A stretch of 64,000 nt of DNA from Prevotella sp. (GTDB lineage Bacteria; Bacteroidota; Bacteroidia; Bacteroidales; Bacteroidaceae). The stretch lies in assembly GCA_022511065.1 (NCBI GenBank), contig JAFLSG010000006.1:1-64000 (forward strand), in the 5' to 3' direction. The notes under the pieces are model-generated. The model saw only the letters and a list, made by a program, of their open reading frames with translations, did not search any database and was not told the DNA's origin. The number at the start of each line of letters is the position of its first letter. Positions within the stretch are counted from its first letter, which is position 1. This document shows positions 28,906 to 46,648 of this stretch, in pieces. The position numbers and the translations under genes are program-made.

Positions 28906-31900
28906 ATGAACAAATTAAGAAAGACAGCGCTGCTGATGGGTATCCTCGTCCTTTCGGGATTGGGTTACTCGTCAAAGGCCAATGCCGCTGAATCAGTCCA
29001 AGACGTTCAGCAGGCGACAAAGAAGATTACAGGTACTGTAGTCGATGCAATGGGTCCGGTCATCGGAGCCAGCGTAGTGGAGAAAGGTACCACGAACGGT
29101 ACCGTTACTGACTTCGACGGAAAGTTCACGCTCAACGTGAATCCCGGTGCGACCATCGTTGTGTCGTTCATCGGCTTCGAGACACAGGAGGTGAAGGTCG
29201 GCAGTCAGGAGAATTACCAGATTGTGATGCGTGACGACAACGCCGTGCTCGAGGAAGTGGTGGTTGTCGGCTACGGTGTGCAGAAGAAGAAGTTGGTGAC
29301 GGGTGCAACGGTTCAGGTGAAGGGTGAGGACATCGCCAAGCTGAACACGACCAACGCCCTGACCGCCATGCAGTCAAGCACGCCGGGTGTGCAGATTACC
29401 CAGAGTTCTTCTCAGCCGGGTAAGGGCTTCAAGGTAAACATCCGTGGTGTCGGTACGATTGGTACTTCTTCCCCATTGCTGATTATCGACGGTATCCAGA
29501 GCGGTACTGCCGATGACGGTCTGAACGGCTTGAACCCGAACGATATCGAGAGCATCGACGTGTTGAAGGATGCTGCCTCTGCAGCCATCTACGGTGCACG
29601 TGCTGCCAACGGTGTAATCCTCGTGACCACCAAGCAGGGTAAGGCCGGCAAACTCCAGATTCAGTACGACGGTTTCGTAGGCTGGTCGAATGCTTACAAG
29701 GCTCCCGCATTGTTGGGTGCTAAGCAGTATATGCAGCTGATCAACGAGGTGAACTTCAACACCTACGGAACAGCTACGGATTGGAGCAGCCTCGTGCCCG
29801 CACATATTCTGAACAAGATTAACCAAGGTTGGGATGGTACTGACTGGTTCAAGGAGTACGAGAACAAGAACGCCCTCCAGTTCAGCCACGCTGTAACCTT
29901 GACGGGTGGTACTGACCGCTCCAAGTTCTCCATGAGCTTGAACTACAGCTCTAATGAGGGTATTCTCGGTGCTAACAATGCTTCCGACTACAAGCGTTAC
30001 GGCGGTCGTATCAACTCTGAGCACATCGTGCTGCAAGGCAAAGACTTGCTCGGCGAGAGCCACGACCTGCTGACCATCGGTGAGAACCTCTCCTACTGGT
30101 ATCACAGCAGCCACGACCTCGCAGAGGGCAACGGTTACTGGAACATCATGCAGGGTGCTTACACAGCTTCTCCGCTCGTAGAGCCTTACAACCCAGACGG
30201 TACACTCACCTCTTACCGCGACAACGGTGCTGGCTACAGCGACATGATTTACTCCAACCCGCTGAACCATTTCCTCAATGGTGGTTACAACTCGCTGAAC
30301 CGCAACCGTGACTTCGGCGTAGGCGGCACTTTCTACTGGATTGTAGAGCCTATCAAGAACTTGCGCTATCGCGGTCAGTTCAACACGGGCTACAGCGCAG
30401 GCTACAGCCGCAGTGCTTCGCTCCCCTTCTCGTCAAGCTCTACGAGTGCAAGTGCGAACTACGGTCTCAGCATGAATCAGTGGATGAGTTCGAGCTTCAC
30501 ACTTGAGAACACTATTTCATACATTCTGCCGAAACTCGGTAAGAACACCATCGATGTATTGGTGGGTCAGTCTATCGAGCGCTCACACTGGAGCAGTGGC
30601 ATGAACTTATCGTTCTCCGTCAATGAAGAGAACCTGAATTCAATGGTGCTCAACGGTTGGGACTTCAATGTACCCAACAACTATGAGGGTCAGTATATCA
30701 CTGGTCACGGCGGTTACGACAATCCCATGCAGGGCAGCATCGCTTCGTTCTTCGGTCGTGCCAACTGGAACTATGACGAGAAATACATGGCTACGGTTAT
30801 CCTCCGTGCCGACGGTTCGAGCAACTTCGCCCGCGGTCATCGCTGGGGTTACTTCCCCTCAGTATCTGCAGGTTGGGTGCTGACAAATGAAAAGTTCCTT
30901 GAGAGCACACGCTCTTGGATGGATTTCTTGAAGCTCCGCGCTTCTTGGGGTCAGAACGGTAACTGTAACATTGGTAACTTCTACTATCTGTCCAACATTG
31001 CATTCTCGCCTACAGGCTATGCCGACTACGGCTATAAGTTCTCAAGCGACATGAACTACACCGTTGGTCAGAACAACTATCAAACTGGTGCATACGCAAA
31101 GAACGCTCCCAACCCCGACGTAACTTGGGAAACTTCTGAGCAGTTGAATATCGGTATCGATGCCCGCTTCATCAGCGGTCGCCTCGGTTTGGCTTTCGAC
31201 TGGTATAAGAAGACTACGAAGGACTGGCTCGTACAGGCTCCTATCAACGAGGTGCTTGGTTATGAGGAAGCCGCCTATATCAATGCCGGTGACGTGGAGA
31301 ACACTGGTTTTGAGCTTGCCCTTTCTTGGCGCGACCAGATTGGCAAGGACTTCTCTTACCATGCCAACGTGAACGTGGCTACCAACAAGAACGAGGTTAC
31401 CAAGCTCGGTACTGCTTCCGGCAAACTCGGTGACGGCACTTCCAACGCACTCTTCCAGAACTCTTCTTACATATCTCTCGTGGAGAAAGGCCATGCCATT
31501 GGCTATTTCTCAGGTATGTCTTACAGCGGTGTATGGCAGAATCAGGCACAGATTGATGCTGCCCGCGCAGCCGGCAAGGCCGTGCTTGCTGACGCACAGC
31601 CTGGTGACTTCATCTGGGACGACTGGAACGGCGACGGTGAGATTTCACTCTCTGAGGACCGCCACGAGATTGGTAACCCGCATCCCGACGTAACCCTCGG
31701 TATCAGCCTCGGCGCTGAGTGGAAGGGCTTCGACTTCGGTATCACGGGTTCGGGCGCATTCGGTATGCAGGTGGCACAGTGCTACCGCACCGCTCTGCTC
31801 GCTAACCAGTATCAGAACTGGACGGTAGATGCATTTGACCGTTGGCACGGTGAGGGCACGAGCAACACGCAGTCTCGCCTTGCTGTTGGTACGACCAACG

Positions 31901-32181
31901 AGCAGTGGGTTTCTTCCCGCTACATCCAGAATGCTGACTACTTCAAACTCCAGAACATCACGTTGGGTTACGACTTCACCAGACTGTGGAAGTCTTCTCC
32001 TTTCAGCCAGTTCCGCCTCTACGTACAGGCGCAGAACCTCTACACCTTCACGGGCTACACGGGTGTTGATCCCGAGGTCGGCTCCAATGGTGGTAACGGC
32101 GGTAGCTGGGTACGCGGTGTTGATGTAGGTCTCTATCCTTCCGCACGTACCTTTATTGTTGGTGCAAGCATCAAGTTCTAA
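28906..32181 (+). CDS. SusC/RagA-family TonB-linked outer membrane protein
   Basis: Carboxypeptidase-regulatory-like N-terminus (ITGTVVDAMGPVIGASVVEKGTTNGTVTDFDGKF), plug VVVGYGVQKKKLVTGATVQV, IDVLKDAASAAIYGARAANGVILVTTKQG. Confidence 0.97.
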   Translation: MNKLRKTALLMGILVLSGLGYSSKANAAESVQDVQQATKKITGTVVDAMGPVIGASVVEKGTTNGTVTDFDGKFTLNVNPGATIVVSFIGFETQEVKVGSQENYQIVMRDDNAVLEEVVVVGYGVQKKKLVTGATVQVKGEDIAKLNTTNALTAMQSSTPGVQITQSSSQPGKGFKVNIRGVGTIGTSSPLLIIDGIQSGTADDGLNGLNPNDIESIDVLKDAASAAIYGARAANGVILVTTKQGKAGKLQIQYDGFVGWSNAYKAPALLGAKQYMQLINEVNFNTYGTATDWSSLVPAHILNKINQGWDGTDWFKEYENKNALQFSHAVTLTGGTDRSKFSMSLNYSSNEGILGANNASDYKRYGGRINSEHIVLQGKDLLGESHDLLTIGENLSYWYHSSHDLAEGNGYWNIMQGAYTASPLVEPYNPDGTLTSYRDNGAGYSDMIYSNPLNHFLNGGYNSLNRNRDFGVGGTFYWIVEPIKNLRYRGQFNTGYSAGYSRSASLPFSSSSTSASANYGLSMNQWMSSSFTLENTISYILPKLGKNTIDVLVGQSIERSHWSSGMNLSFSVNEENLNSMVLNGWDFNVPNNYEGQYITGHGGYDNPMQGSIASFFGRANWNYDEKYMATVILRADGSSNFARGHRWGYFPSVSAGWVLTNEKFLESTRSWMDFLKLRASWGQNGNCNIGNFYYLSNIAFSPTGYADYGYKFSSDMNYTVGQNNYQTGAYAKNAPNPDVTWETSEQLNIGIDARFISGRLGLAFDWYKKTTKDWLVQAPINEVLGYEEAAYINAGDVENTGFELALSWRDQIGKDFSYHANVNVATNKNEVTKLGTASGKLGDGTSNALFQNSSYISLVEKGHAIGYFSGMSYSGVWQNQAQIDAARAAGKAVLADAQPGDFIWDDWNGDGEISLSEDRHEIGNPHPDVTLGISLGAEWKGFDFGITGSGAFGMQVAQCYRTALLANQYQNWTVDAFDRWHGEGTSNTQSRLAVGTTNEQWVSSRYIQNADYFKLQNITLGYDFTRLWKSSPFSQFRLYVQAQNLYTFTGYTGVDPEVGSNGGNGGSWVRGVDVGLYPSARTFIVGASIKF

Positions 32182-32206
32182 TCATCATTAAAACAGAATA
32201 GAAGAT

Positions 32207-34036
32207 ATGAAAAAGATATATTTCATGGCAATCGCGGCGCTCTTCGCATTTTCTTCTTGCGAGGACTTCCTCGATTCCACAAACTATACGCAGTCGTCAA
32301 GCGACAACTATCCGGCTTCAGCTGCCGACCTGAACAAGGAGCTGGCCGCCCTCTACGGTGTGATGAACCAGTTTGCCAACGACCCGTTGCAGACCCCGTG
32401 GCTTGTGCCCAACTTCATGTCTGACGACTTGAACGGCGGTGGCGGTACAGGTGACGTGGAGGCACACGCCGTGAGCCATCTGATGACTAACAAGGAAAGT
32501 CTTTACGATGTGGCTTGGCACTGCACATACGTAGGTATTTCTCGTGCCAACGCTATTATCAACAGCGTGGATGCCTTCGATTGGACTGGTCAGGAGACAA
32601 CCCGCAACCAGTTGCTCGGTGAGGCTTACTTCATGCGCGGCCTGTTCTATCTCTGGGGCGTGCAGTTCTGGGGTGACATTCCCGCCTATTGGGCAGCAGC
32701 CGCTCCCGATCCCTGCCCACAGGAGAGCGCAGAGGATGTTATCATGCCGCATATCCTTGCTGACTTCGTGACTGCATCCAACCTGATGACCCACGGTGCT
32801 ACCCAGCAGGGTGACGGTCATGCAACGAAGGGTGCTGCCGAAGGCTATCTGGCTCGTGCCTATATGTTCTATCAGGGCTTCTACAAGAAGGCCGGTGAGC
32901 TTGCCAACGCTTCTTTGGCAGATGTAGAACTGCCCGAGCAGGAAGGCGTAAACGGCAATCTTTCTAAGTCGCAGGTGGTTTCCTATTTGGAGGATGCTAT
33001 CAACAATGGTGGCTATCGCCTTGTAGATGACTTCCGTCGCCTCTGGCAGTACACCAACGAGCTGACCGCTCCCGACTATCCTTACGTAGCAGACTTGGCT
33101 GCCGAGGGCAAATACTGGGCAGGCAACGGCAACGAGGAGCAGATGTTCCAGGTACAGTTTGGTAACATGGCTTCTTGGAATGGTACGATTGGTATGGGCT
33201 TCACGAACATGACTTCTCTCTACTGCGGTCTCCGTTGCGATGACGACGGTGCAGGTCATGTCAATGGTGGTGCTGAGACTTTGCCTTTCGGACAGGGCTG
33301 GGGACAGGGTACTGTCAATGCCAACCTGTGGGATGACTGGTCTGACGCTGACCCGCGTAAGAAGGCTACTATCCTTGATGCACAGAGCGAGCTTGCAGGT
33401 TTCGTATTCACAACGAGCTGCTCCGAGGATGCCGGCTACTACAACAAGAAGATTATGCCTGTTACTTGCTCTCAATCTACTTTCAGCGATATGAGCGTGA
33501 ACTACACATGGTGGGGCGTTTGGCGTGCAAACAACACTTCTGCTGTCAATAACAACGGTAACTCCTTCCAGGGTGACCACTATGCCGACATCATTCTGCT
33601 CCGTCTTGCCGACGTGATGCTGATGCACTCCGAGCTGACGGGTAATGCCGACAATATGAACAAGGTACGCGCACGTGCCGGTCTGGAGCCGACCACCTAC
33701 TCTTGGCAGAACATCAAGAACGAGCGCCGCTTTGAGCTTGCAGGTGAGGGTATTCGCTTCAACGATCTGCGCCGCTGGTCTGGTAAGGATGCCGGTGCAA
33801 GCTGTGAGGCTGCCGTGGCATTGGAGCGTCAGAACGGTTCGCGCGTGAACTACACCGGCCGTTGGAGCGCCATCAAGCACTCCTCAAGCTGGGCACAGCG
33901 CTATGCCGACACCAACGGCTTCCTGCCCATCCCGCCCGCACAGATTAACCTGATTGCCGACGAGGCCGTGCTGAAGCAGAACAAGGGTTGGTACGACGGC
34001 ACGGATTGGAATATGTCCGGTACTCCGATTTATTAA
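32207..34036 (+). CDS. SusD/RagB-family nutrient-binding lipoprotein
   Basis: Lipobox FSSC; RANAIINSV; AYFMRGLFYLWGVQFWGDIP; DIILLRLADVMLMHSE; NERRFELAGEGIRFNDLRRW. Confidence 0.96.
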   Translation: MKKIYFMAIAALFAFSSCEDFLDSTNYTQSSSDNYPASAADLNKELAALYGVMNQFANDPLQTPWLVPNFMSDDLNGGGGTGDVEAHAVSHLMTNKESLYDVAWHCTYVGISRANAIINSVDAFDWTGQETTRNQLLGEAYFMRGLFYLWGVQFWGDIPAYWAAAAPDPCPQESAEDVIMPHILADFVTASNLMTHGATQQGDGHATKGAAEGYLARAYMFYQGFYKKAGELANASLADVELPEQEGVNGNLSKSQVVSYLEDAINNGGYRLVDDFRRLWQYTNELTAPDYPYVADLAAEGKYWAGNGNEEQMFQVQFGNMASWNGTIGMGFTNMTSLYCGLRCDDDGAGHVNGGAETLPFGQGWGQGTVNANLWDDWSDADPRKKATILDAQSELAGFVFTTSCSEDAGYYNKKIMPVTCSQSTFSDMSVNYTWWGVWRANNTSAVNNNGNSFQGDHYADIILLRLADVMLMHSELTGNADNMNKVRARAGLEPTTYSWQNIKNERRFELAGEGIRFNDLRRWSGKDAGASCEAAVALERQNGSRVNYTGRWSAIKHSSSWAQRYADTNGFLPIPPAQINLIADEAVLKQNKGWYDGTDWNMSGTPIY

Positions 34037-34063: not shown

Positions 34064-35578
34064 ATGAAAAAATCAATATTATTGTTCGCAGTGGCACTGG
34101 GGATTCTCACGTCGTGCGACCCCATCAAGGAGGAGAAGGACTTCAACGTGACCAATATTGCCGCTTCCGAACTGCTGAACGGTGCTGAGTTCGCACAGTA
34201 TGCAGACGAGGCATGCACCACGCCGGCGGCTGATGGTAACTACATCAAGTTCAACATCCCGAGCGTGTCGAGTATCACGGCCTACACCTTGCAGGCTGAC
34301 GGCTCAGAGTTCGTTATCTCCCGTGGTAAGGCCGGTGGCGTGATGGGGCTGTTCCCGCGCCGTGGTTCTGATCCCAATCAGACAGTTTATTTCCGTTATA
34401 CCAACCAAGACGGTCAGGACATTGTTGCCTCCAAGGATTTCAATGTGTTTGTTTCCGGCGAGTTGGATCCGGCAGTAAGATTCCTTGCTTCCAACGATTA
34501 TGGTGAGAAGACCTGGAAATGGGACCCGTCCATCACGGGTGCCGTATGGGGTAACATGGGTTACTGCGGTGGCGCAGGTGCTGATGTTGGTCTTGCTGGT
34601 AACGGTCAGTGGTGGGGTGTAACCTCTACCGAGGAGTTCAATGGTCAGTTACAACACACCGAAGACGGCACTAACCATGGTGACGGTGACCTCAATGCTT
34701 ACATGGTATTCTCTGAAGATGGGCTAATCAAATGTTTCGATGCTGATGGAAATGTAATTCGCGAAGGAACATTCGCAGTTAGCAATTACAATCCCAATGA
34801 CCCCACTGCATGGAAAGTAGGCGATTTGGTAACATCTGCTGGTGCAATTCTTTGGCCTTACCAGATTAACTGGTGGGACACAGGGCACGACCAAAACCCA
34901 TTCCCGACAACTTTTGAGATTGTCTATTTAACGGCAGACAAGATGACGCTCGTATATCCCGATGGTGGTGACTTCGGCGCGCTTGGCGGCTGGGGCGAGG
35001 CTTCGTTCTGGCATTTCTACAGCGACACCGACCTCTCCGGTATGGCTGCCGGCTATGATGAAGGCAAGAGCTGGACTTGGGACACTTCCGTTACGGGTGC
35101 TGTATGGGGTAACATGGGCTACTGCGGTGGCAATGGTGCTGCTGTTGGTACTTCTGGTGAAGGCCAGTGGTGGGGTGTTACCTCCACTGACGAATTCAAC
35201 GGTCAGTTACAACACACCGAGGATGGTGTGAACCACGGCGATGGTGACCTGGATGCATTCATGGTTCTCGGCACTGACGGCACTATCAAGCGCTGCGCTG
35301 CCGACGGTTCTGTCATCAACAGCGGTACTTACGAGTTCGTTCCTGTAAAGGGTAACGACTGGAAGGTTGCCAACCTGAACACGACTGCCGGTACCATTTT
35401 GTGGCCTTACCAGATTAACTGGTGGGACACAGGGCACGACCAAAACCCATTCCCAACAACTTTTGAGGTTGTCTATCTGACAGGTGACAAGATGACGCTC
35501 GTATATCCTGATGGTGGCGACTTCGGTGGTCTTGGTGGCTGGGGCGAGGCTTCGTTCTGGCACTTCAAGGCGAAGTAA
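34064..35578 (+). CDS. SusE/F-like surface lipoprotein with a duplicated C-terminal domain
   Basis: Lipobox GILTSC; two copies of a ~180-aa unit (WKWDPSITGAVWGNMGYCGG... / WTWDTSVTGAVWGNMGYCGG...). Confidence 0.75.
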   Translation: MKKSILLFAVALGILTSCDPIKEEKDFNVTNIAASELLNGAEFAQYADEACTTPAADGNYIKFNIPSVSSITAYTLQADGSEFVISRGKAGGVMGLFPRRGSDPNQTVYFRYTNQDGQDIVASKDFNVFVSGELDPAVRFLASNDYGEKTWKWDPSITGAVWGNMGYCGGAGADVGLAGNGQWWGVTSTEEFNGQLQHTEDGTNHGDGDLNAYMVFSEDGLIKCFDADGNVIREGTFAVSNYNPNDPTAWKVGDLVTSAGAILWPYQINWWDTGHDQNPFPTTFEIVYLTADKMTLVYPDGGDFGALGGWGEASFWHFYSDTDLSGMAAGYDEGKSWTWDTSVTGAVWGNMGYCGGNGAAVGTSGEGQWWGVTSTDEFNGQLQHTEDGVNHGDGDLDAFMVLGTDGTIKRCAADGSVINSGTYEFVPVKGNDWKVANLNTTAGTILWPYQINWWDTGHDQNPFPTTFEVVYLTGDKMTLVYPDGGDFGGLGGWGEASFWHFKAK

Positions 35579-35774: not shown

Positions 35775-37475
35775 ATGAGCCATAAAGGAATGGCAAGAAA
35801 CATAACGGTGGGGCTGTCGGTGCTGATGGGCATCGGCGTGTTCTTGTTTTGGAACACGGCTTATCCCCATGCCCTCTCTTACCAAGAGCAGTATCAGCTG
35901 TTCCTGTGGACGGGTGACTATCTGCGGGAGCGGGGAGGCGTGCCGGGGGGCGTGGCGGACTGGCTCGGGGAATTCATCGTGCAGTTCTATCGTATCGAAT
36001 GGTTAGGAGCTTTGCTGTTGGCACTGTTATTCGTGGCGTTGCAGCAAGTGGTGAGGATGGTCACGGGGTTCGGACTGCCGAGTTTCGTGCCATCGGTACT
36101 ACTTTTTTGGCTGTTGGGCGACCCGAGCGTGCTGTTAGGTTATGTGATGGCACTCATCATTGCAATCAGTTCTGCCGGAATCATGGGATATATCGGACGG
36201 AAAGCAGAGCGGACGAGAATTGCAAAGATTATCGGAAAGTGGGGGGATATTCTTATCGTGCCGATAATCTATTGGGTAGTCGGGCCTTTGGCGTGGGTGT
36301 ATGTGCTGCTGCGGATAGTGGGATATGCCCAGAAGGAAGGATGGAGAAACGGATGGAAACTTGGATGGATTGCCGTTTATCTCGCTGTGCTCCAAGTGGT
36401 TGCTTATCATTTCCTATTAACGCAATGGCAGGCGGAGGCAGTCATGCTGCCGATGCAATACTACCGAATTCCGCTGATGATGAACGGACTGATGTGGGGC
36501 ATTCCCCTCGTCATCATTATCTTGGCGGGGCTTTCCACTTTCAAAAAGGACTTTTGGCAGACTTCCAGAACACGACGGACAAGCATCGTTGCGCCTGTCA
36601 TCCAAGCAATAGAAATCTTAGGATTAGCCGCACTCACATGGGCAGCCATCAGCAAAGGATATGACAAGGACATGTACGAGCTGATTCGGCAAGACTATTT
36701 GGTGCGGAACGAGCGATGGGACGAGATTGTGAAGCGGGCGCAGGAATATCAGGTAAAGACCCCGTTCTGGTCGAACTGCGTAAATCTTGCCTTGGCGCAG
36801 AAGCGGCAGTTGGCAGACCGAATGTTCGACTTCTACCAAAGCGGAGAAGATGCATTGTTGATGCCCCGCGTGAGAGACCTCACTTCCATGCTGCCTACGG
36901 CAGAGGCTTTTTGGCGATTGGGTATGGTGAACTCCGCGCAACGATATATGTTCGACACCCAAGAATCCATCCTGAACGGTCGGAAAAGCGGGCGCTGCAC
37001 CCAACGCATTGCGGAGTGCATGCTCGTGAACGGACATTACCGCACGGCAACCAAGCAGCTCAATCTGCTGAAAAAGACACTCTTTTATCGCGAATGGGCA
37101 CAGGAAGCAGAGGCACTCCTCGGACAGGAGGAAAAGATAAACGCCCATCCCGTCTATGGCAAGTTGCGCAGACTGAGATACAAAGAGGACTTCTTATATA
37201 GTTATGAGGAGATGGACAAGATGCTTGGGCTACTCTTCATGAACAATCCCGAGAACAAGATGGCACTCGATTACTTCATGGGAGAGATGCTGCTGAAGGG
37301 GAACTTGCAGGGATTCCAACAGTACATGGGTGCGGTACAGCAATACGGAGGCTACCGAATGATGCCCATCGGTTATCAGGATGCGATGCGGTGCATTCAG
37401 ATGCAGGGCAACGTGCCCGGCTCACCATACGCCAACTACGCCAAGCGGATGATGGCAGGAAGGAGGGACTCATGA
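35775..37475 (+). CDS. DUF6057-like polytopic membrane protein, paralogue A
   Basis: YPHALSYQEQYQLFLWTGDYLRERGGVPGG, multiple TM segments, C-terminal TPR-like region; TACCTTTG at 35762-35769. Confidence 0.65.
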   Translation: MSHKGMARNITVGLSVLMGIGVFLFWNTAYPHALSYQEQYQLFLWTGDYLRERGGVPGGVADWLGEFIVQFYRIEWLGALLLALLFVALQQVVRMVTGFGLPSFVPSVLLFWLLGDPSVLLGYVMALIIAISSAGIMGYIGRKAERTRIAKIIGKWGDILIVPIIYWVVGPLAWVYVLLRIVGYAQKEGWRNGWKLGWIAVYLAVLQVVAYHFLLTQWQAEAVMLPMQYYRIPLMMNGLMWGIPLVIIILAGLSTFKKDFWQTSRTRRTSIVAPVIQAIEILGLAALTWAAISKGYDKDMYELIRQDYLVRNERWDEIVKRAQEYQVKTPFWSNCVNLALAQKRQLADRMFDFYQSGEDALLMPRVRDLTSMLPTAEAFWRLGMVNSAQRYMFDTQESILNGRKSGRCTQRIAECMLVNGHYRTATKQLNLLKKTLFYREWAQEAEALLGQEEKINAHPVYGKLRRLRYKEDFLYSYEEMDKMLGLLFMNNPENKMALDYFMGEMLLKGNLQGFQQYMGAVQQYGGYRMMPIGYQDAMRCIQMQGNVPGSPYANYAKRMMAGRRDS

Positions 37476-38935
37476 GGAATCTGATACGGATATTGGCAGT
37501 CATCACGCTACTGGCAGCATGCTCGTCAAAGCCAGAGAACGTGACTATGACGGACGAGTTGCCCGCGATTTACCCTGACTATATAGGCGTGACCATTCCC
37601 GCAGGCATCGCCCCGTTAGACTTTAACATGATGGATGAGGCGGTAGATTGCATCGACGTTACCGTGAGAGGTTCGGAAGGAGGAGAGTTGCACTGCAACG
37701 GCGCATGGGCAAAGTTTGGTATTGACGACTGGCATGCGCTGACGGAGCAGAACAAAGGAGGCAAACTGACACTTACCGTCTGCGCAAGGAAAGACGGAAA
37801 GTGGACACAATACAAGGACTTTGAGATTTACGTGAGCCGTGAAAGGCTTGACGACTGGGGACTGACCTACCGGCGCATCAAGCCCGGCTACGAGGTAGGT
37901 GGCGACATCGGCATCTATCAGCGTGACCTCCACACATTCGAGGAATACCCGATACTAACGGAAACGGCCGTACCCGGGCGCTGCATGAATTGCCACACCG
38001 CCAACCGCACCAATCCCGCGCTATTTACGACCCAGATACGAGGTGAGGGCGGTGGTACGCTCATCCAAAGAGACGGGAAGCAGACATGGCTTAATACCAA
38101 GACCGACGCAACGAAGGCAGCAGGCTCATACGCCTATTGGCATCCGTCTGGCGACTACTGCGCCTACGCCACCAACTCGGTGCATCAAGCATTCTTCGTG
38201 GGAACGGGGCAGCGGATAGAGGTGTATCACCGATTTAGTGATATCATGGTACTCGACACCCGCACCAACGAGTTGTTGCTCACTCCGCTGCTGCAAACGG
38301 AGGACTTGGAGATATTCCCTGCCTTCTCCGCCGATGGAAACACCCTCTATTACAGCACATCGAAGCCCTGCCGCGTGCCGGCGGAATATGAAAAGGTAAA
38401 ATGCAGCCTATGCGCTATCTCTTTTGATGCAAAGACGGGCAAGTTTGGGGAGCGGGCAGACACGCTGCTCAACGGCGAGGAAGCAGACAAGAGTTTTACC
38501 CTGGCACGTCCCTCGTATGACGGGCGGTGGCTGATGTACTGCCAATCAAGCCGCAGCAACTTCCCCGTAGCGCAGACCGATGCCGACTTGTGCCTGATGA
38601 ATCTTGAAACGGGAGAGACGCGCGTATTGGATGAAGTGAACAGTCCGCAGACCGAGAGCTATCATAACTGGAGCGAGAACAGCCGATGGTTCGTCTTCGG
38701 CTCCAAGCGGGAGGACGGCATGTATATGCGGCTTTACCTTGCAGCCATCGATGCACAGGGGAACATATCAAAGCCTTTCCTACTGCCGCAGCGTAATCCC
38801 CGGAAGTTCTATCAGGAAATGATGGACTCCTATAACTGTCCCGACTTCACCAAGGAAAAGGTGGAGTTTGATGCCCACGAAGCATATAGGCAGGTATTCG
38901 AGGACAAGCGGGTGCAGGTGCGGGTCAGGCAATGA
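37472..38935 (+). CDS. Lipoprotein with TolB/PD40-like beta-propeller and c-type heme motif CMNCH, paralogue A
   Basis: Lipobox LLAAC; IYPDYIGVTIPAGIAPLDF; CMNCHT at 37982-37996; propeller-like FSADGNTLYYS, PSYDGRWLMY. ATGA overlap with upstream gene. Confidence 0.75.
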   Translation: MRNLIRILAVITLLAACSSKPENVTMTDELPAIYPDYIGVTIPAGIAPLDFNMMDEAVDCIDVTVRGSEGGELHCNGAWAKFGIDDWHALTEQNKGGKLTLTVCARKDGKWTQYKDFEIYVSRERLDDWGLTYRRIKPGYEVGGDIGIYQRDLHTFEEYPILTETAVPGRCMNCHTANRTNPALFTTQIRGEGGGTLIQRDGKQTWLNTKTDATKAAGSYAYWHPSGDYCAYATNSVHQAFFVGTGQRIEVYHRFSDIMVLDTRTNELLLTPLLQTEDLEIFPAFSADGNTLYYSTSKPCRVPAEYEKVKCSLCAISFDAKTGKFGERADTLLNGEEADKSFTLARPSYDGRWLMYCQSSRSNFPVAQTDADLCLMNLETGETRVLDEVNSPQTESYHNWSENSRWFVFGSKREDGMYMRLYLAAIDAQGNISKPFLLPQRNPRKFYQEMMDSYNCPDFTKEKVEFDAHEAYRQVFEDKRVQVRVRQ

Positions 38936-38948
38936 CACATAACAAGAG

Positions 38949-39614
38949 ATGAAGAAAAGAATGAAGAATATGAAGAAAATGCTATTATGCCTGATGGCTG
39001 CCGCAACGGTTATCTGCGGCTGCCGCAACTCGGGCGAGTGCCGCATCAGCGGTACGGTGAACGGAGAGCAGTATGAAGGGAAGCGCATCTTCCTCGTACC
39101 GCTCTATGGCCCTGCCACGGCAGAGACCGTAGATTCCGTGGAAATCAAGAACGGCAAGTTTGCCTTCACGCCCGACTCGATGCAGATGTATAAGATTCTG
39201 CTCGACTATCATTTCCGTTTCGGGCTGCAACCGCTGCTCGTGGTTGGTGAGCCAGGTGACATCACGGTGACGATAGACTCCGTAAGCCATGCCTATGGCA
39301 CACCGCAGAATGATTCCCTTGAGCAATGGAAGACCCACAAGGAAATGCACGACAAGCAGCTTCTGATGATGCGCAAAAACATCGAGAACTTGAAAATGGC
39401 TGGCCGCATGGAGGAAGCAGATAGTCTGAAGCAGTACGCCGACAGTTTCCACCTCGTGCATAAGAACTACACGCGCCGTATGGCAGAGGACCTGAAAGAA
39501 GGTCCGCTGCATGAATTCCTCAAGAGCCTCTATCCGCTGACCTACCAGCGCAAATACCCCGACGGTCGTACCGTGACAATGAATGCTGACACGAATGAAG
39601 AGATTCCTGAGTAA
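38949..39614 (+). CDS. DUF4369-like lipoprotein without a C-terminal thioredoxin domain
   Basis: Lipobox VICGC; CRISGTVNGEQYEGKRIFLVPLYGPATAETVDSVEIKNGKFAF. Confidence 0.7.
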   Translation: MKKRMKNMKKMLLCLMAAATVICGCRNSGECRISGTVNGEQYEGKRIFLVPLYGPATAETVDSVEIKNGKFAFTPDSMQMYKILLDYHFRFGLQPLLVVGEPGDITVTIDSVSHAYGTPQNDSLEQWKTHKEMHDKQLLMMRKNIENLKMAGRMEEADSLKQYADSFHLVHKNYTRRMAEDLKEGPLHEFLKSLYPLTYQRKYPDGRTVTMNADTNEEIPE

Positions 39615-41286
39615 GCACGCAGACCTTCTGCTGACTTTAGTGTTCGGCTTGGCGGTGTTCCTGTTCTGGAAACTCCGCTATCCGTTTGCGCTGACCTATC
39701 AGGAGCAGTTTCAGTTCTTCCTGTTCGATGGGGATTACTTTGCAGAGCGGATGGCAGAGCCAGGAGGACTTGCACGCTATGTGGCTGAGTTCCTTGTGCA
39801 GTTCTATAATGGCGTGACCATCGGTGCGGCAATTCTTGCCGTGCTGTTCATGACCATTCAACTACTGACATGGCAACTGATGAAGAAATCCTGCGATGGC
39901 TCTTGGTACCCGCAGAGTTTTCTGCCACCTCTCATGCTGTGGTATGCGATGGGCGATGAGAACGTGATGCTGACATACACCGTGGCACTTATTATGGCAA
40001 TGGCAATGACATTAGTTCTCCAGCAATTCAAGGAAAGCGGGGTGAACAAGTGGATATGGTGGGGAAGCCTTATCATCGCGATTCCCCTACTCTACTGGTT
40101 ACTTGGCCCGATGGTGCTGTTTGTGGCAATAGCTGTGATGCCCGTGTCCGTTCTCTATGCCGCAGCGTGTATCTTCTTGAGCGCACGGATGCTACCCTTC
40201 CCACTCCAAAGGCTATTGCTCGGCATTGACTATTACCGTTTCCCCGAAACGCTGCCATACATATTGATGGCGATACCCGTTGTCATCTTCTTGTTGGCAT
40301 ATTGCACCCGCTTTCTGCCGAAAGCAAAGAGTTGGATGGTTGGGGCTGCAGCAGTGGTTGTGGCAGTTATCGGACTGATGTGTGGGTTTGGCTTCGAGGA
40401 AAAGAAATACGAACTGATAGAATACGACTATTTGGTGCGCATCAAGGACTGGAACGGTATCATCGCCAAAGCAGACAAGCAGACACCTGACCTGCCGATG
40501 AGCGTATGCGCCACCAATCTGGCATTGGCAATGACCAACCAATTGGGAGAGCGGGCTTTCGACTTCTATCAGCGGTCGAGCGAGGGACTATTGCCACCCT
40601 TTGAGCGCAACTTTGCCACAACGATGCTGACTGGCGAGGCTTATTTCCACTTAGGACTGGTAAACACGGCGCAACGCTTTGCCTTTGAAGCGATGGAGGC
40701 CATACCGAACTACAACAAGAGTGCCCGTGCGGTGAAACGGCTGGCAGAGACAAACCTGATAAACGGACAATATGAGGTGGCAAGGAAATACCTGCGGATG
40801 TTGGAAAAGACAATCTTCTACCGCCCGTGGGCAAAGCGCACCATGACGCTATTAGGGGATGAGCAGAAAATTGACACGCATCCGCTCTATGGTACTTTGC
40901 GGAAATATCGTCTGCAAGAGGATTTTCTATTTAGCGACCAGGAGTTGGATAAGATATGCGGGCAACTATTCCTACACAACCAACAGAACCAGATGGCGGC
41001 GCAATATCTGCTGATGGCTCCCTTGCTCGACCGGGACATTCCCCGTTTTATGCAGTATGTGCAGGTGGTGCAGAACCGCATACAATACAATCCCCGCAGT
41101 TGTCAGGAGGCGATAGCCTTTGCATTTATGCAACAGCGCCAGCAACCGCCACGAGGCGTGGTCAATCAGATGATACTGCAACAGATGAATGACTTCGCAC
41201 GCATCTATTCGGCGGGCGGGAAGAATGCGCCGGAATTGGAAAGATTCAGAAACACGGTATGGTATTACTTAACGGTAGGAAAATGA
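39595..41286 (+). CDS. DUF6057-like polytopic membrane protein, paralogue B
   Basis: YPFALTYQEQFQFFLFDGDYFAERMAEPGG; co-linear with paralogue A. Confidence 0.65.
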   Translation: MKRFLSKHADLLLTLVFGLAVFLFWKLRYPFALTYQEQFQFFLFDGDYFAERMAEPGGLARYVAEFLVQFYNGVTIGAAILAVLFMTIQLLTWQLMKKSCDGSWYPQSFLPPLMLWYAMGDENVMLTYTVALIMAMAMTLVLQQFKESGVNKWIWWGSLIIAIPLLYWLLGPMVLFVAIAVMPVSVLYAAACIFLSARMLPFPLQRLLLGIDYYRFPETLPYILMAIPVVIFLLAYCTRFLPKAKSWMVGAAAVVVAVIGLMCGFGFEEKKYELIEYDYLVRIKDWNGIIAKADKQTPDLPMSVCATNLALAMTNQLGERAFDFYQRSSEGLLPPFERNFATTMLTGEAYFHLGLVNTAQRFAFEAMEAIPNYNKSARAVKRLAETNLINGQYEVARKYLRMLEKTIFYRPWAKRTMTLLGDEQKIDTHPLYGTLRKYRLQEDFLFSDQELDKICGQLFLHNQQNQMAAQYLLMAPLLDRDIPRFMQYVQVVQNRIQYNPRSCQEAIAFAFMQQRQQPPRGVVNQMILQQMNDFARIYSAGGKNAPELERFRNTVWYYLTVGK

Positions 41287-42767
41287 GAAAGACAACAAGC
41301 ATACGGTTCTTGGGGGGGGTATCATTCCTTGTCCTCCTACTGCTGACGGCCTGCACCCACAAGGTGGAGAACCCCACGGCGGTAAACGAACTGCCGAAGA
41401 TATACCCCGACTACGCGGGGGTGACGATTCCCGTAGAGATTGCCCCGCTGAACTTCAACTACATCGGCGGAGAGGCTGACCGAATAGATGTAGTGGTCAA
41501 GGGCAGCAAGGGAGGCGAGTTGCATACGCAAGGCGAATATGCTGACTTTGACATTGACGACTGGCATCGGATGACAGAGCAGAACAAAGGTGGTACGCTG
41601 ACCTTCACCGTTTGCGTGGAGCAAGATGGAAAATGGCTACAATACAAGGACTTCACCGTCAATATCAGTCCATATGCGCTCGATGAATGGGGACTGACCT
41701 ACCGCCGCATTGCACCCGGCTATGAGGTATTCAGTAAGATGGGGCTCTATCAGCGCGACCTCACGAACTTTGATGAGTTTGCCATCATTGAGAATACGCA
41801 AGTGCCGGGCATGTGTGTGAATTGCCATACCGCCCAACAGACCAACCCAGACAAGTTTGTCTTCCACGTGCGTGGAGACCACGGCGCCACGATGTTTCAG
41901 ATAGACGGAAAGCGGGAATGGCTGAAAGCAAACAACGACCAGTTGGGCGGCTCAATGGTCTATCCCTACTGGCATCCAAGCGGAAAATACTGCGCTTTCT
42001 CCACCAATCAGACGCGGCAGGGCTTCCATGTTGTGCCTAACGAGCGCATTGAGGTGTTTGACCTGTCGAGCGATGTATTTGTCTATAACCCAGAAACGCA
42101 CGAGGTGCTTACCGACTCGCTGCTCTCTACAAAGGAATGGAGCGAAAACTCACCCGTGTTCTCGCCAGATGGCCACACCTTATATTATATGACGTGCCAC
42201 CAGATGGAATACCCCGCCCACTACAAAGAGGAGAAGTATAACCTTTGCAAGATTGCGTTTGACCCAGAGACGGGCAAGTTTGGCGAGCGGGTGGATACGC
42301 TCTTCAATGCCGTGGCAATGGGTAAAAGCCTGACATGGCCACGCCCTTCATACGACGGGAGATATATGATGTTCACGCTGATGGACTACGGTTACTTCTC
42401 CATCTGGCACGAAGAGAGCGACCAATGGCTGCTCGACCTGCAGACGGGAGAGGCGCGGGAGATGAAAGAGGTGAACAGTCCCAAGGCGGACAGTTACCAC
42501 AACTGGAGCCTGAATTCCCACTGGTTTGTATTCACCAGTCGGCGAGACGATGGATATTACAGCCGCCTCTATTTGGCAAGCATTGACGAAAAGGGTAATA
42601 TCTCCAAGCCGTTCATGCTGCCGCAGCGGAATCCACAGGAGTATTACGGGGAGAGCATCTACTCCTTCAATACCCCCGACTTTACCAAGAAGAAAGTGGA
42701 GTTTGATGCCTACAACGCCGGGCAGGAGATTCTTTCAGACAAGCGGGTAGCGACTAAGGTAAGGTAA
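41283..42767 (+). CDS. TolB-like propeller lipoprotein with CVNCH motif, paralogue B
   Basis: Lipobox LLTAC; IYPDYAGVTIPVEIAPLNF; CVNCHT at 41814-41828; ATGA overlap. Confidence 0.75.
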   Translation: MRKTTSIRFLGGVSFLVLLLLTACTHKVENPTAVNELPKIYPDYAGVTIPVEIAPLNFNYIGGEADRIDVVVKGSKGGELHTQGEYADFDIDDWHRMTEQNKGGTLTFTVCVEQDGKWLQYKDFTVNISPYALDEWGLTYRRIAPGYEVFSKMGLYQRDLTNFDEFAIIENTQVPGMCVNCHTAQQTNPDKFVFHVRGDHGATMFQIDGKREWLKANNDQLGGSMVYPYWHPSGKYCAFSTNQTRQGFHVVPNERIEVFDLSSDVFVYNPETHEVLTDSLLSTKEWSENSPVFSPDGHTLYYMTCHQMEYPAHYKEEKYNLCKIAFDPETGKFGERVDTLFNAVAMGKSLTWPRPSYDGRYMMFTLMDYGYFSIWHEESDQWLLDLQTGEAREMKEVNSPKADSYHNWSLNSHWFVFTSRRDDGYYSRLYLASIDEKGNISKPFMLPQRNPQEYYGESIYSFNTPDFTKKKVEFDAYNAGQEILSDKRVATKVR

Positions 42768-44202
42768 AGTGCCTTGCTTCCTGTTGCATCGCCCTTGCCA
42801 CATCATCGACATCGAAAGGAACCTTGCCCTTCCCTATTTCCGGGGCATTGAAGGACTTCAGGCAATTGTCGTAAAACTGAGGATGCTGCTGAGGCAAACA
42901 AAAAGGCTTCTTAGCGCGCCCATTGGCATCTATATAACAATAATAAGGCTTCCCGTACAAACCGTCATCCCGCTTGGAGGCAAAGACGAACCAACGCGAG
43001 TTGCTGCTCCATGAGTGATAGGTGTCACTCTTCGCGCTATTCACCACGCCGAGCGTATCAATGCGCCCCGTCTGCAAGTCCATCATCTGCAAATCTGCCT
43101 CGGGATGCCAGATGGGGAACGTGCCATAATCCGCAACGGTGTATAGCAGATAACGACCGTCAGGGCTGATGCGGGGATGACATACGGAGGCATCCTTATA
43201 ATTCACAAGCGTATCTACCTGTGTACCAATCGTTCCTGTCGCCTCGTCAAATCCGATGCGCACCAGACTATAGCGCAGTTTTTTAATCTCCGAAGGCAGA
43301 CTGACGCTGTCGGCAACACAATAGTAAATATGCTTCCCATCGGGAGAGAAAGTCGGGAATGTCTCAAAGTGCAGGCTATCGCTCAATAGCGGAGAGGAGA
43401 TAATCCGTTGCTTCTCCAAGTCTGCCACAAAGATATTCGACTCGGAATCATACACCTCCAAGCGCTTGCTTGCGTCGCTATGGAAGGCGGGGATAATCTT
43501 GTTGGTGGAATAGACAATATAACGCCCAGTGGGACTGAAGCCGAAATAGACGCTGCCGGGGATGTCCAACTTGCTTAACTTCCCACCCTGATTGAGGATG
43601 GCACCGCCACCCGCACCGCGCACATACATCATCGAGAGGTTAGGGTCTTGACTACCAAATGTGTGGCAATTCATGCAACGATTGTCCAACTGCTCATAAT
43701 GACCAAGGGCATTCACCTCGAAATTCTCCACGCAACGCTGCTGAATCTGCAAGTGATTCCATATCTCATAGTCTGGCTCAATCAAGCGATACGTGAGGTA
43801 AGGGTCTATCTCATCCTTCACCACATCCCATTGGAAACGTTGATACTGAATCCATTTGCCATCGACAAGCGCGGTAACGGTAACATATAATGGTTTGCCG
43901 GCAGCCTCTTTCAGCAACGCTTTCCATTCATCCATACCAAAAACCACCTCATTGCCCCGTGCATTCACTTTAATGGATTTCTGGTAAGGGTCAATCACCT
44001 CGGGAGCCTCAACCCTCACCTCCACCGCTTCGCAATCAGTCCGCAACAGGAAATTCAGCGGGGCGATGTTCTGCGGAATGGTGATATCACGATAGTCGGG
44101 ATAAATGGGCGCAGGTTCTTCAATGATGCTAACATTCTCCGGCACGGGCGTACAAGAGAGCAGACACCACAGGGCGAGCAGGGATATTACACAATGTTTC
44201 AT
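42754..44202 (-). CDS. TolB-like propeller lipoprotein with CMNCH motif, paralogue C
   Basis: Lipobox LLSC; IYPDYRDITIPQNIAPLNF; CMNCHT at 43677..43663. Confidence 0.75.
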   Translation of the reverse strand: MKHCVISLLALWCLLSCTPVPENVSIIEEPAPIYPDYRDITIPQNIAPLNFLLRTDCEAVEVRVEAPEVIDPYQKSIKVNARGNEVVFGMDEWKALLKEAAGKPLYVTVTALVDGKWIQYQRFQWDVVKDEIDPYLTYRLIEPDYEIWNHLQIQQRCVENFEVNALGHYEQLDNRCMNCHTFGSQDPNLSMMYVRGAGGGAILNQGGKLSKLDIPGSVYFGFSPTGRYIVYSTNKIIPAFHSDASKRLEVYDSESNIFVADLEKQRIISSPLLSDSLHFETFPTFSPDGKHIYYCVADSVSLPSEIKKLRYSLVRIGFDEATGTIGTQVDTLVNYKDASVCHPRISPDGRYLLYTVADYGTFPIWHPEADLQMMDLQTGRIDTLGVVNSAKSDTYHSWSSNSRWFVFASKRDDGLYGKPYYCYIDANGRAKKPFCLPQQHPQFYDNCLKSFNAPEIGKGKVPFDVDDVARAMQQEARHFTLP

Positions 44203-45623
44203 ATTTCCGGCGCTTTAACCTTATCAAAATAATACCAATAACTCCCCTTGAAGCGGGCGTTACCGCGCTGTTTATTGTAGTCCATAAAGCGTTGCACTAT
44301 GTCAGGGCGCTGAATGTATCGCCGCCACTCCTCTTGCGGGGCATCCGAACCGGCAAGCCAAATGCAAAGTGCTTCCTGATAGAGCGTTTTGACGCGTGGT
44401 TTGCCCGTTTCCATGCAATAGCGGTCATAGTCGCGCTTGAAGTTAGCGATGTCTTTTAGCAGCAGATTGCTGCACAGGATATAGTCAAGTGCAACGGTGT
44501 TGTCGGGATTCGTATCAAGTAGTTGCATCATCAGGAAATGGGCATTGTCGGTAGTGGTGATGGTGTCATGGCGGTTCACGAAACGCATCTTGTCCCGATA
44601 GATACTCTCCCCGTTTGCCCTGATATTCCGCGCCCAAGCCCGATAGGCGAGGGTCTTGTCAAGCAGCCGCAAGTATTTCTCAGCCGCCAATGTGTCACCG
44701 CTGACAATGCTGCACTCCGCCAATCGTCGTATCATTCTGACATTACGATTATCGCGACTGAACACGTTGGCCATCATGGCAGCCCGCTCGGTGAAAGTCA
44801 TATCGCCCAAAACCCAATAGAGTTCGTTCATGTTGCGGATGGTCAATAGCGGCGTTTCCGGGCCGATTTTATAGAAAGTGCCTAATTCATTGGGCGTGAA
44901 TGACAACAAGTGGTCGGGAAGTTGCCCGCGCTGTGCCTGCACGAGGTTATAGAAGAAAAGCATTTCCTTCGTCCATTGCTCCGAACCTTCCACCATCCCA
45001 ATGACTTTTCCGTAGTTGCCGAAATAATATTCATTATCTACCGCAAAGTCTTTTTCTAAGATAAAATCAGGCATTCCGACCTTCTTGATTTGCGGAAAAC
45101 CAAAAAGCAAGTAGGCAGGAAGAAGGGAGGTTGCCAAGCAGATGCATCGCAATCCCCATCTCCGTTTTCCCCTTTGACCTTTGATGAAAGATACCAACCA
45201 CAGTACACACGCCCAGCCTATCATCGAGATAGTGGAGGAGAGGCGGTAGGTATGACTGAAATGGCAGACGGCGAAAAACGTCATCACACCGATGGAAACC
45301 GCAAAGGCAACGTGCCGATTGCATCCGAAATTCTTGAGCGCAAGATGCAATATGCCCCCAAGCGCAAGTAGGCAGAGGGTCACAAGGGTTGCCCCCACAT
45401 ATAAATAATAGAAGAACTGCGTCAGGAAATCACCCACCAATACCGCCAATCCACCAGGATGCTCAAAATAAGTAGAGACATAATCCCACGACCAGAGGAA
45501 TATCTGACTCTGCTCCTGATAGAAGAAATGGTAGGGATAGCAGAACTGGAAGAACACGAAACAGGCACAAGCCCACAGGACTCCCAGCACTACTTGGTAA
45601 TATCTTCCGCAGAACTCTCTCAT
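44199..45623 (-). CDS. DUF6057-like polytopic membrane protein, paralogue C
   Basis: YPYHFFYQEQSQIFLWSWDYVSTYFEHPGG; coupled to both neighbours by 4-nt overlaps. Confidence 0.65.
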   Translation of the reverse strand: MREFCGRYYQVVLGVLWACACFVFFQFCYPYHFFYQEQSQIFLWSWDYVSTYFEHPGGLAVLVGDFLTQFFYYLYVGATLVTLCLLALGGILHLALKNFGCNRHVAFAVSIGVMTFFAVCHFSHTYRLSSTISMIGWACVLWLVSFIKGQRGKRRWGLRCICLATSLLPAYLLFGFPQIKKVGMPDFILEKDFAVDNEYYFGNYGKVIGMVEGSEQWTKEMLFFYNLVQAQRGQLPDHLLSFTPNELGTFYKIGPETPLLTIRNMNELYWVLGDMTFTERAAMMANVFSRDNRNVRMIRRLAECSIVSGDTLAAEKYLRLLDKTLAYRAWARNIRANGESIYRDKMRFVNRHDTITTTDNAHFLMMQLLDTNPDNTVALDYILCSNLLLKDIANFKRDYDRYCMETGKPRVKTLYQEALCIWLAGSDAPQEEWRRYIQRPDIVQRFMDYNKQRGNARFKGSYWYYFDKVKAPEI

Positions 45624-46648
45624 CCCAAGATGCGCTCCAACTCGTCAAGATCCTCGTCCGTCGTTGCCCAACTGGTCACGAAACGGCAGATGGTGCGGTG
45701 CTTGTCTGCCTGTCCCCAATGCGTGAACACCACTTCCTTGCTCAACTCATCCACCGTCTTGTTGGGAATGATGATGAACTGCTGATTGGTCGGCGAGTCG
45801 ATATAGAACTCAAAGCCCTTCTTTACAAAGATGTCCTTCATCCGCATCGCCATCTTGATGGCGTGACGAGAGAGGTCGAAGTAGAGGTTATCCGTGAACA
45901 ATGCCTCGAACTGCAACCCGATAAGCGCACCTTTGGCAATCACTGCGCCGTGCTGCTTCTGGATGGAGAAGAAGTGCTTGTGCGCATTCTGATGCGTGAA
46001 GACCACCGCCTCTCCGCATAAAGCACCTATCTTTGTGCCTCCGATATAGAACACATCGCAGTGGCGCGCGAGGTAAGGCAAGGTGATGTCGCACCCGTCT
46101 GCCATCAGGCCATAGCCCAATCGCGCCCCGTCGATGTATAGGGGAATCTCATATTTCTGGCAGACTTGGTAAATCGCATCCAACTCTTGAGCGGTATAGA
46201 GTGTACCGAACTCGGTCGGGAAAGTGATGTAAACAAGTCCGGGGAACACCGCATGGGCATTATTTCCGTCGTGTACGAAGTCGTCAAGATACTTGTCAAG
46301 CACCTTTGACTCCAACTTCCCGTCTTTCTCAGGCAGCGTGATAATCTTATGTTCCGTGAACTCCACGGCGCCCGCCTCGTGCACATTGATATGCCCCGAA
46401 CTCACGCAAATCACGCCCTCATACTGATAGAGCATCGAGTCGATGGTCGTCGCATTCGTCTGCGTGCCGCCCGTCAGGAAATAAATCTGGGCCTCCGGCA
46501 GTCCGCACGCCTCGCGGATGCGCTCCTTTGCCCGCTCGCTAAACTCGTCAAATCCGTAGGGGGTGGGCCGGGCATCATTATGCCTCACCAGATTCTCTAA
46601 CACTTTCGGGTGCGCCCCGTTATTGTAGTCACATTCAAATGAAATCAT
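45620..46648 (-). CDS. ltaE: Low-specificity L-threonine aldolase / beta-eliminating lyase
   Basis: FECDYNNGAHPKVLENL; FLTGGTQTNATTIDSML; YIGGTKIGALCGEAVVF (PLP Lys). Confidence 0.85.
   Translation of the reverse strand: MISFECDYNNGAHPKVLENLVRHNDARPTPYGFDEFSERAKERIREACGLPEAQIYFLTGGTQTNATTIDSMLYQYEGVICVSSGHINVHEAGAVEFTEHKIITLPEKDGKLESKVLDKYLDDFVHDGNNAHAVFPGLVYITFPTEFGTLYTAQELDAIYQVCQKYEIPLYIDGARLGYGLMADGCDITLPYLARHCDVFYIGGTKIGALCGEAVVFTHQNAHKHFFSIQKQHGAVIAKGALIGLQFEALFTDNLYFDLSRHAIKMAMRMKDIFVKKGFEFYIDSPTNQQFIIIPNKTVDELSKEVVFTHWGQADKHRTICRFVTSWATTDEDLDELERILG

Follow-up and report, generated by a model that had tools for sequence, protein, structure and literature searches.

A recurrent pair of a DUF6057 membrane protein and a CxNCH propeller lipoprotein beside a SusC/SusD operon in Prevotella, a candidate heme-bearing accessory unit

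What might three paralogous gene pairs, in each of which a DUF6057 membrane protein gene precedes one for a propeller lipoprotein bearing a single CxNCH motif, be doing directly behind a SusC/SusD operon in a Prevotella genome? The pairs occupy positions 35775-45623 of the window, by which we mean the whole 64,000-nucleotide stretch of DNA analysed. The reading we tentatively favour, at slightly less than even confidence, is an accessory unit of Sus-type loci in which a membrane protein with a tetratricopeptide-repeat-like (TPR-like) tail would serve a dedicated, probably heme-bearing periplasmic propeller lipoprotein. The genes concerned are as follows.

28906 to 32181, forward strand: SusC/RagA TonB-dependent transporter (TIGR04056, E 1.9e-256), upstream of the array and on the same strand as its first two pairs.
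32207 to 34036, forward strand: SusD/RagB lipoprotein (PF07980 and PF14322).
34064 to 35578, forward strand: third lipoprotein, in the SusE position, with two internal repeats and no Pfam family; homologues occupy the same position.
35775 to 37475, forward strand: DUF6057 membrane protein of pair 1, 566 aa (PF19529, E 2.4e-133, 446 bits), with a YQEQ..F..DY..PGG..QF loop and a TPR-like tail.
37472 to 38935, forward strand: propeller lipoprotein of pair 1, CMNCHT (PD40, E 1.5e-6), with lipobox and CxNCH supported by alignments.
38949 to 39614, forward strand: DUF4369 lipoprotein between pairs 1 and 2 (PF14289, E 1e-10), its position kept in many relatives.
39583 to 41286, forward strand: DUF6057 membrane protein of pair 2, 567 aa (PF19529, E 3.1e-173, 578 bits; AlphaFold2 pLDDT 95).
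41283 to 42767, forward strand: propeller lipoprotein of pair 2, CVNCHT (PD40; AlphaFold2 pLDDT 93; best Foldseek match TolB).
42754 to 44202, reverse strand: propeller lipoprotein of pair 3, CMNCHT (PD40, E 8.7e-16), convergent to pair 2.
44199 to 45623, reverse strand: DUF6057 membrane protein of pair 3, short at 474 aa (PF19529, E 3.3e-126, 423 bits), with fewer helices (about five transmembrane segments).

The initial annotation had described three two-gene pairs here, and all six open reading frames were recovered, with the DUF6057 gene first in each pair and ATGA-type overlaps of 4 nt between partners (37472-37475, 41283-41286 and 44199-44202). That annotation had recognized neither the SusC/SusD operon nearby nor the DUF4369 gene. 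For the pair 2 membrane protein, the longest frame opens at the ATG at 39583; the start chosen earlier was the next in-frame ATG, at 39595. All three membrane proteins are full members of PF19529, far above the Pfam gathering cut-off (29.8 bits), and PD40 is the sole Pfam match of the lipoproteins, above cut-off in all three. In alignments the lipoproteins share 39-55% mutual identity with C.NCHT invariant, and the DUF6057 proteins 30-39%; the likeness among the pairs is well beyond chance. This anatomy is established directly here. A PHROGs search gave no match. The 3' ends of the convergent lipoprotein genes of pairs 2 and 3 overlap by 14 nt (42754-42767), and the start of the pair 3 DUF6057 gene overlaps by 4 nt with a threonine-aldolase-like gene (Beta_elim_lyase, 45620-46648, reverse strand). 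Upstream of the latter is an ornithine/aspartate carbamoyltransferase-like gene, and both neighbours recur in loci L134 and L199.

The association of the two families extends well beyond the window. A gene-neighbourhood survey of 79 related loci from close relatives placed DUF6057 directly upstream of 123 of the 127 lipoproteins with enough upstream sequence, the commonest spacing being a 4-nt overlap (39 cases). Across an order-level sample of 199 genomes the families coincide (Fisher p about 3e-24), and 45/48 lipoproteins adjoin a DUF6057 gene, which lies directly upstream on the same strand in 40. Full-length lipoprotein matches and over-cut-off DUF6057 matches also fall in the same three genomes of a 300-genome phylum sample, and about three quarters of the genomes in a family-level sample (136/181) carry the lipoprotein. 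Partner distances co-vary in a mirror-tree comparison of 102 pairs (r = 0.86), whereas 1000 shuffles of partners, made within a locus only, gave a mean of 0.25 and a maximum of 0.52; thus, the pairs are cognate units. Pairing and co-divergence are direct results, and that each lipoprotein would work with its own DUF6057 is strongly supported, with co-divergence as the strongest evidence. The earlier proposal of an obligate functional unit gains strong support from adjacency, co-occurrence and the co-divergence of cognate partners; rare co-occurrence, which would have counted against it, is the opposite of what the phylum and order samples contain.

Two additional complete pairs lie on contigs C21 and C49 of the same genome (2.65 Mb, 103 contigs, about 91% complete), which therefore holds five. 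For both partners, the closest kin of each window copy are same-position copies in other species, so the pairs are old paralogues and not products of recent duplication. A lone degenerate DUF6057 gene, without the YQEQ loop or a lipoprotein partner, occurs on contig C27 (L127, 8207-9370) beside a glycogen-branching-enzyme-like gene. Named relatives are mostly rumen or gut Prevotella, Segatella, Xylanibacter and Bacteroides, and the two-gene units recur in gut and rumen Prevotella-type bacteria.

With residues numbered as in pair 2, the lipobox Cys, C178, C181 and H182 are invariant in 166/166 lipoproteins, an observation directly contrary to the loss of CxNCH among homologues that would have weakened a heme assignment. 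The motif is also present in all four distant homologues in which a propeller is joined to TPR repeats. Other candidate ligands are common but never universal: H406 in 155/166 (Pro in the other 11), H231 in 152/166 and H376 in 142/166. A distal Met or His, which the initial annotation had raised as a check, was not found in universal form, no His or Met besides H182 being shared by all 166. The AlphaFold2 model of the pair 2 protein (81 sequences, mean pLDDT 93) consists of a propeller preceded by an N-terminal beta domain; the cytochrome-c-like insertion that the initial annotation had asked about was not seen in it. In this model, built without heme, CxNCH lies in the beta-strand that opens the first blade (residues 178-185) and not in a helix. 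In ordinary cytochromes c, CxxCH is part of a helix. The family thus matches c-type cytochromes in being exported with an invariant CxxCH (166/166), and departs from them in the modelled absence of a helical CxxCH within a cytochrome fold. With the motif in a propeller strand and H182 as the sole universal ligand, any bound heme would have an unusual setting and at most one certain axial ligand.

Among solved structures, TolB is the best Foldseek match to the lipoprotein model; the matches also include metal-binding propellers (oligogalacturonate lyase and thiocyanate dehydrogenase) and, weakly, the cobalamin-binding lipoprotein BT2095. The lipoprotein profile matched mainly TolB and peptidase propellers among PDB sequences, and neither a cytochrome nor hydrazine synthase. 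The window proteins share PD40 repeats with TolB/PD40 propellers but differ from TolB in having CxNCH at blade 1, their own N-terminal domain and a lipobox; assignment as TolB itself was rejected (equivalog TIGR02800, 15-31 bits against a cut-off of 343 bits). Other Bacteroidota have a broader family of CxNCHS propeller proteins with TPR repeats on the same chain (L012, L013, L084, L085), and no PDB relative bearing the CxNCHS motif was found. These distant CxNCHSFS proteins share CxNCH at the propeller start and an H406 equivalent with the window lipoproteins; they are longer and carry the TPR on the same chain, whereas here it resides on the separate DUF6057 protein. The hydrazine synthase alpha subunit combines a propeller with an unusually ligated c-type heme in one chain (PMC12758564, PMC12607021). 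By analogy, this shows that the two can share a chain, although that heme sits in a separate middle domain, CxNCH lies within the propeller here, and we found no sequence match between the proteins.

As for cytochrome c assembly genes, the Prevotella genome encodes a fused CcsBA (System II). Among near-complete genomes of the family-level sample, a PF01578 (System II/CcsA-type) gene is present in 88/90 with the lipoprotein and 22/33 without it (p = 7e-6, uncorrected for relatedness, related genomes not being independent samples). The order sample gave 21/21 genomes with the lipoprotein or DUF6057 against 137/178 others (p = 0.009), with one 61%-complete genome (G310), bearing a single DUF6057 and no PF01578, counted among the others. 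One of the two exceptions to 88/90, G506, has CcsB. In the second, G533, which is nominally 99% complete, neither CcsA nor CcsB was found, yet it carries CxNCH lipoproteins including a CLNCH form (loci L252-L254 cover G506 and G533); either the assembly has a gap here or the heme reading is challenged. Invariance of CxxCH and co-occurrence with System II both favour a covalent heme. Thus, the earlier suggestion of a heme-carrying protein stands in these two respects, and is held back by the strand setting, the lack of a universal distal ligand and G533. The CcsBA cluster itself, on contig C82 (L124, 6423-13121), also contains a Rid-like (PF01042) gene next to CcsBA, a CANCH lipoprotein and porin-like, CGSCH/CHLCH di-heme and imelysin-like proteins. 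The Rid-like gene is found again in six loci, adjoining DUF6057-lipoprotein arrays or close to them. The idea that NrfA is this genome's main cytochrome client was set aside, as no NrfA was found there.

For the membrane partner, the initial annotation had described a conserved YQEQ..DY..PGG loop, many transmembrane helices and a TPR-like tail; the loop and the tail hold, and pair 3 has fewer helices. By hydropathy the long forms are ambiguous, with seven or eight transmembrane segments, compared with about five in pair 3 and about three in the paralogue on C21; some other short relatives have even counts. An odd number with the N-terminus inside would put the TPR tail in the periplasm, a tentative placement. 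Conserved residues concentrate in the first loop (E41, Q44, F46, Y52, P60-G62, Q73, G81) and the tail (R382, R386, E389, K402, L407, W416). None of the His residues reaches 75% conservation, an argument against a heme-b electron carrier. The confident pair 2 model has no match at E <= 0.001 among PDB structures, and its weak hits fall mainly among TPR and other helical-repeat proteins; as modelled, DUF6057 lacks a PDB fold match beyond its TPR tail.

Genomic context, which is observed directly, places the array beside glycan-uptake genes. The order SusC, SusD and third lipoprotein typical of Sus-like loci, with susC and susD adjacent (28906-34036), lies directly upstream, about 196 nt separating the third lipoprotein from pair 1. 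The two repeats of that lipoprotein (34064-35578) are very similar to each other (WGNMGYCGG..QWWGVTST..). In relatives, SusC/SusD genes precede 38/71 arrays by no more than three same-strand genes and lie downstream of 3/80, counts in which many loci are orthologous and hence not independent; part of the arrays are not near SusC/D. A DUF4369 lipoprotein is often found between pairs 1 and 2 of relatives, and several single-pair relatives sit among GH10-esterase, GH43-CBM6, GH3, GH35, GH26 and BACON-GH5 genes. Relatives of the cassette lie in xylan-type utilization loci (GH10, GH43, GH3). Within the window, no glycan-degrading enzyme was recognized adjoining the array.

How far do other explanations account for these data? 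CxNCH may be no heme site, its Cys pair and His instead binding another metal or forming a structural or redox disulfide in a ligand-binding or enzymatic propeller. We regard this as unlikely, though a serious contender: the motif is predicted in a strand at the start of blade 1, metal-binding propellers are among the fold matches, and the Asn (N180) is retained in 164/166 lipoproteins despite not being needed for plain heme attachment. The exact CxxCH pattern in all 166 sequences and in the distant homologues, together with the association with cytochrome c assembly genes, argues in the other direction. The genes could instead form a metal-chelate uptake unit like XusABC or BtuBG: a TonB-dependent transporter would deliver an iron or heme complex, the lipoprotein would capture or reduce it, and DUF6057 would act as the inner-membrane partner. 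The XusABC xenosiderophore system has the same general plan of transporter, propeller lipoprotein and inner-membrane partner (PMC13142918), and BT2095 is a weak fold match. We nevertheless consider such uptake improbable, as it is SusC and SusD that accompany the array here, and the relatives lie among glycoside hydrolases. XusC is moreover a PepSY protein, which DUF6057 is not, so that the present unit, with SusD, a CxNCH motif and no PepSY protein, resembles XusABC in plan without being a member.

Other possibilities turn on the role of DUF6057. It could be a dedicated maturation factor, similar to the TPR proteins NrfG and CcmI, that would deliver its cognate apolipoprotein to the heme ligase and would not be a long-term working partner. 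Its TPR-like tail, the strict one-to-one co-divergence and the co-occurrence with CcsBA-type genes would all suit this role, to which we give little credence: a polytopic membrane domain that has a conserved loop of its own exceeds what a TPR chaperone needs, and family searches found no sequence link from DUF6057 to CcmH or NrfG. Far less probable still is a GT-C-type membrane glycosyltransferase with the lipoprotein as its accessory. A first periplasmic loop with a conserved acidic residue and PGG, short helices after the first transmembrane segment and the TPR tail are reminiscent of such enzymes. Against this stand the lack of a solved structure matching at E <= 0.001, short paralogues without much of the membrane domain, and a negative hhalign comparison with TMEM260/DUF2723, in which the controls (a cytochrome assembly family and the lipoprotein alignment) were negative as well.

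For the Sus-locus accessory unit that we favour, the following sequence of events may be envisaged. The lipoprotein would be exported, lipid-anchored and folded as an N-terminal beta domain with a TolB-like propeller, and a single heme c is most likely held covalently by its CxNCH at the start of the first blade, with System II (CcsBA) attaching it in the periplasm. DUF6057 would be the inner-membrane partner, and we infer that its periplasmic loop and TPR tail recognize their own lipoprotein by contact. Together they may serve SusC/SusD-type glycan-uptake loci in the periplasm behind the importer. There, the heme, for which one axial His is certain and no distal ligand is fixed, would either bind an incoming ligand or modify it by redox chemistry, although both reaction and ligand are speculative. 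A bolder reading, which we think possible but rather doubtful, is a new kind of cytochrome, with a covalent c-heme on the first blade of a TolB-like propeller and a dedicated membrane TPR partner, recruited repeatedly into polysaccharide utilization loci of anaerobic Bacteroidales for a redox, ligand-binding or gas-sensing step.

Few systems of gut and rumen bacteria have been studied as much as polysaccharide utilization loci, whose inventory is regarded as largely known. Our literature searches (DUF6057; PD40 with cytochrome; cytochromes in polysaccharide loci) found no publication on this system and none naming the DUF6057 family. The pairing of DUF6057 with a CxNCH lipoprotein and with SusC/SusD thus appears undescribed, and the pair is not a known Sus part. 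The five matched pairs in one genome provide natural sets for studying how membrane proteins and lipoproteins recognize their partners. If the proposed role is correct, a recurrent module of these loci would introduce into glycan capture a redox or heme element that was not expected. It would also point to a set of clients for cytochrome c assembly machinery in anaerobes such as this Prevotella, in which no NrfA was found.
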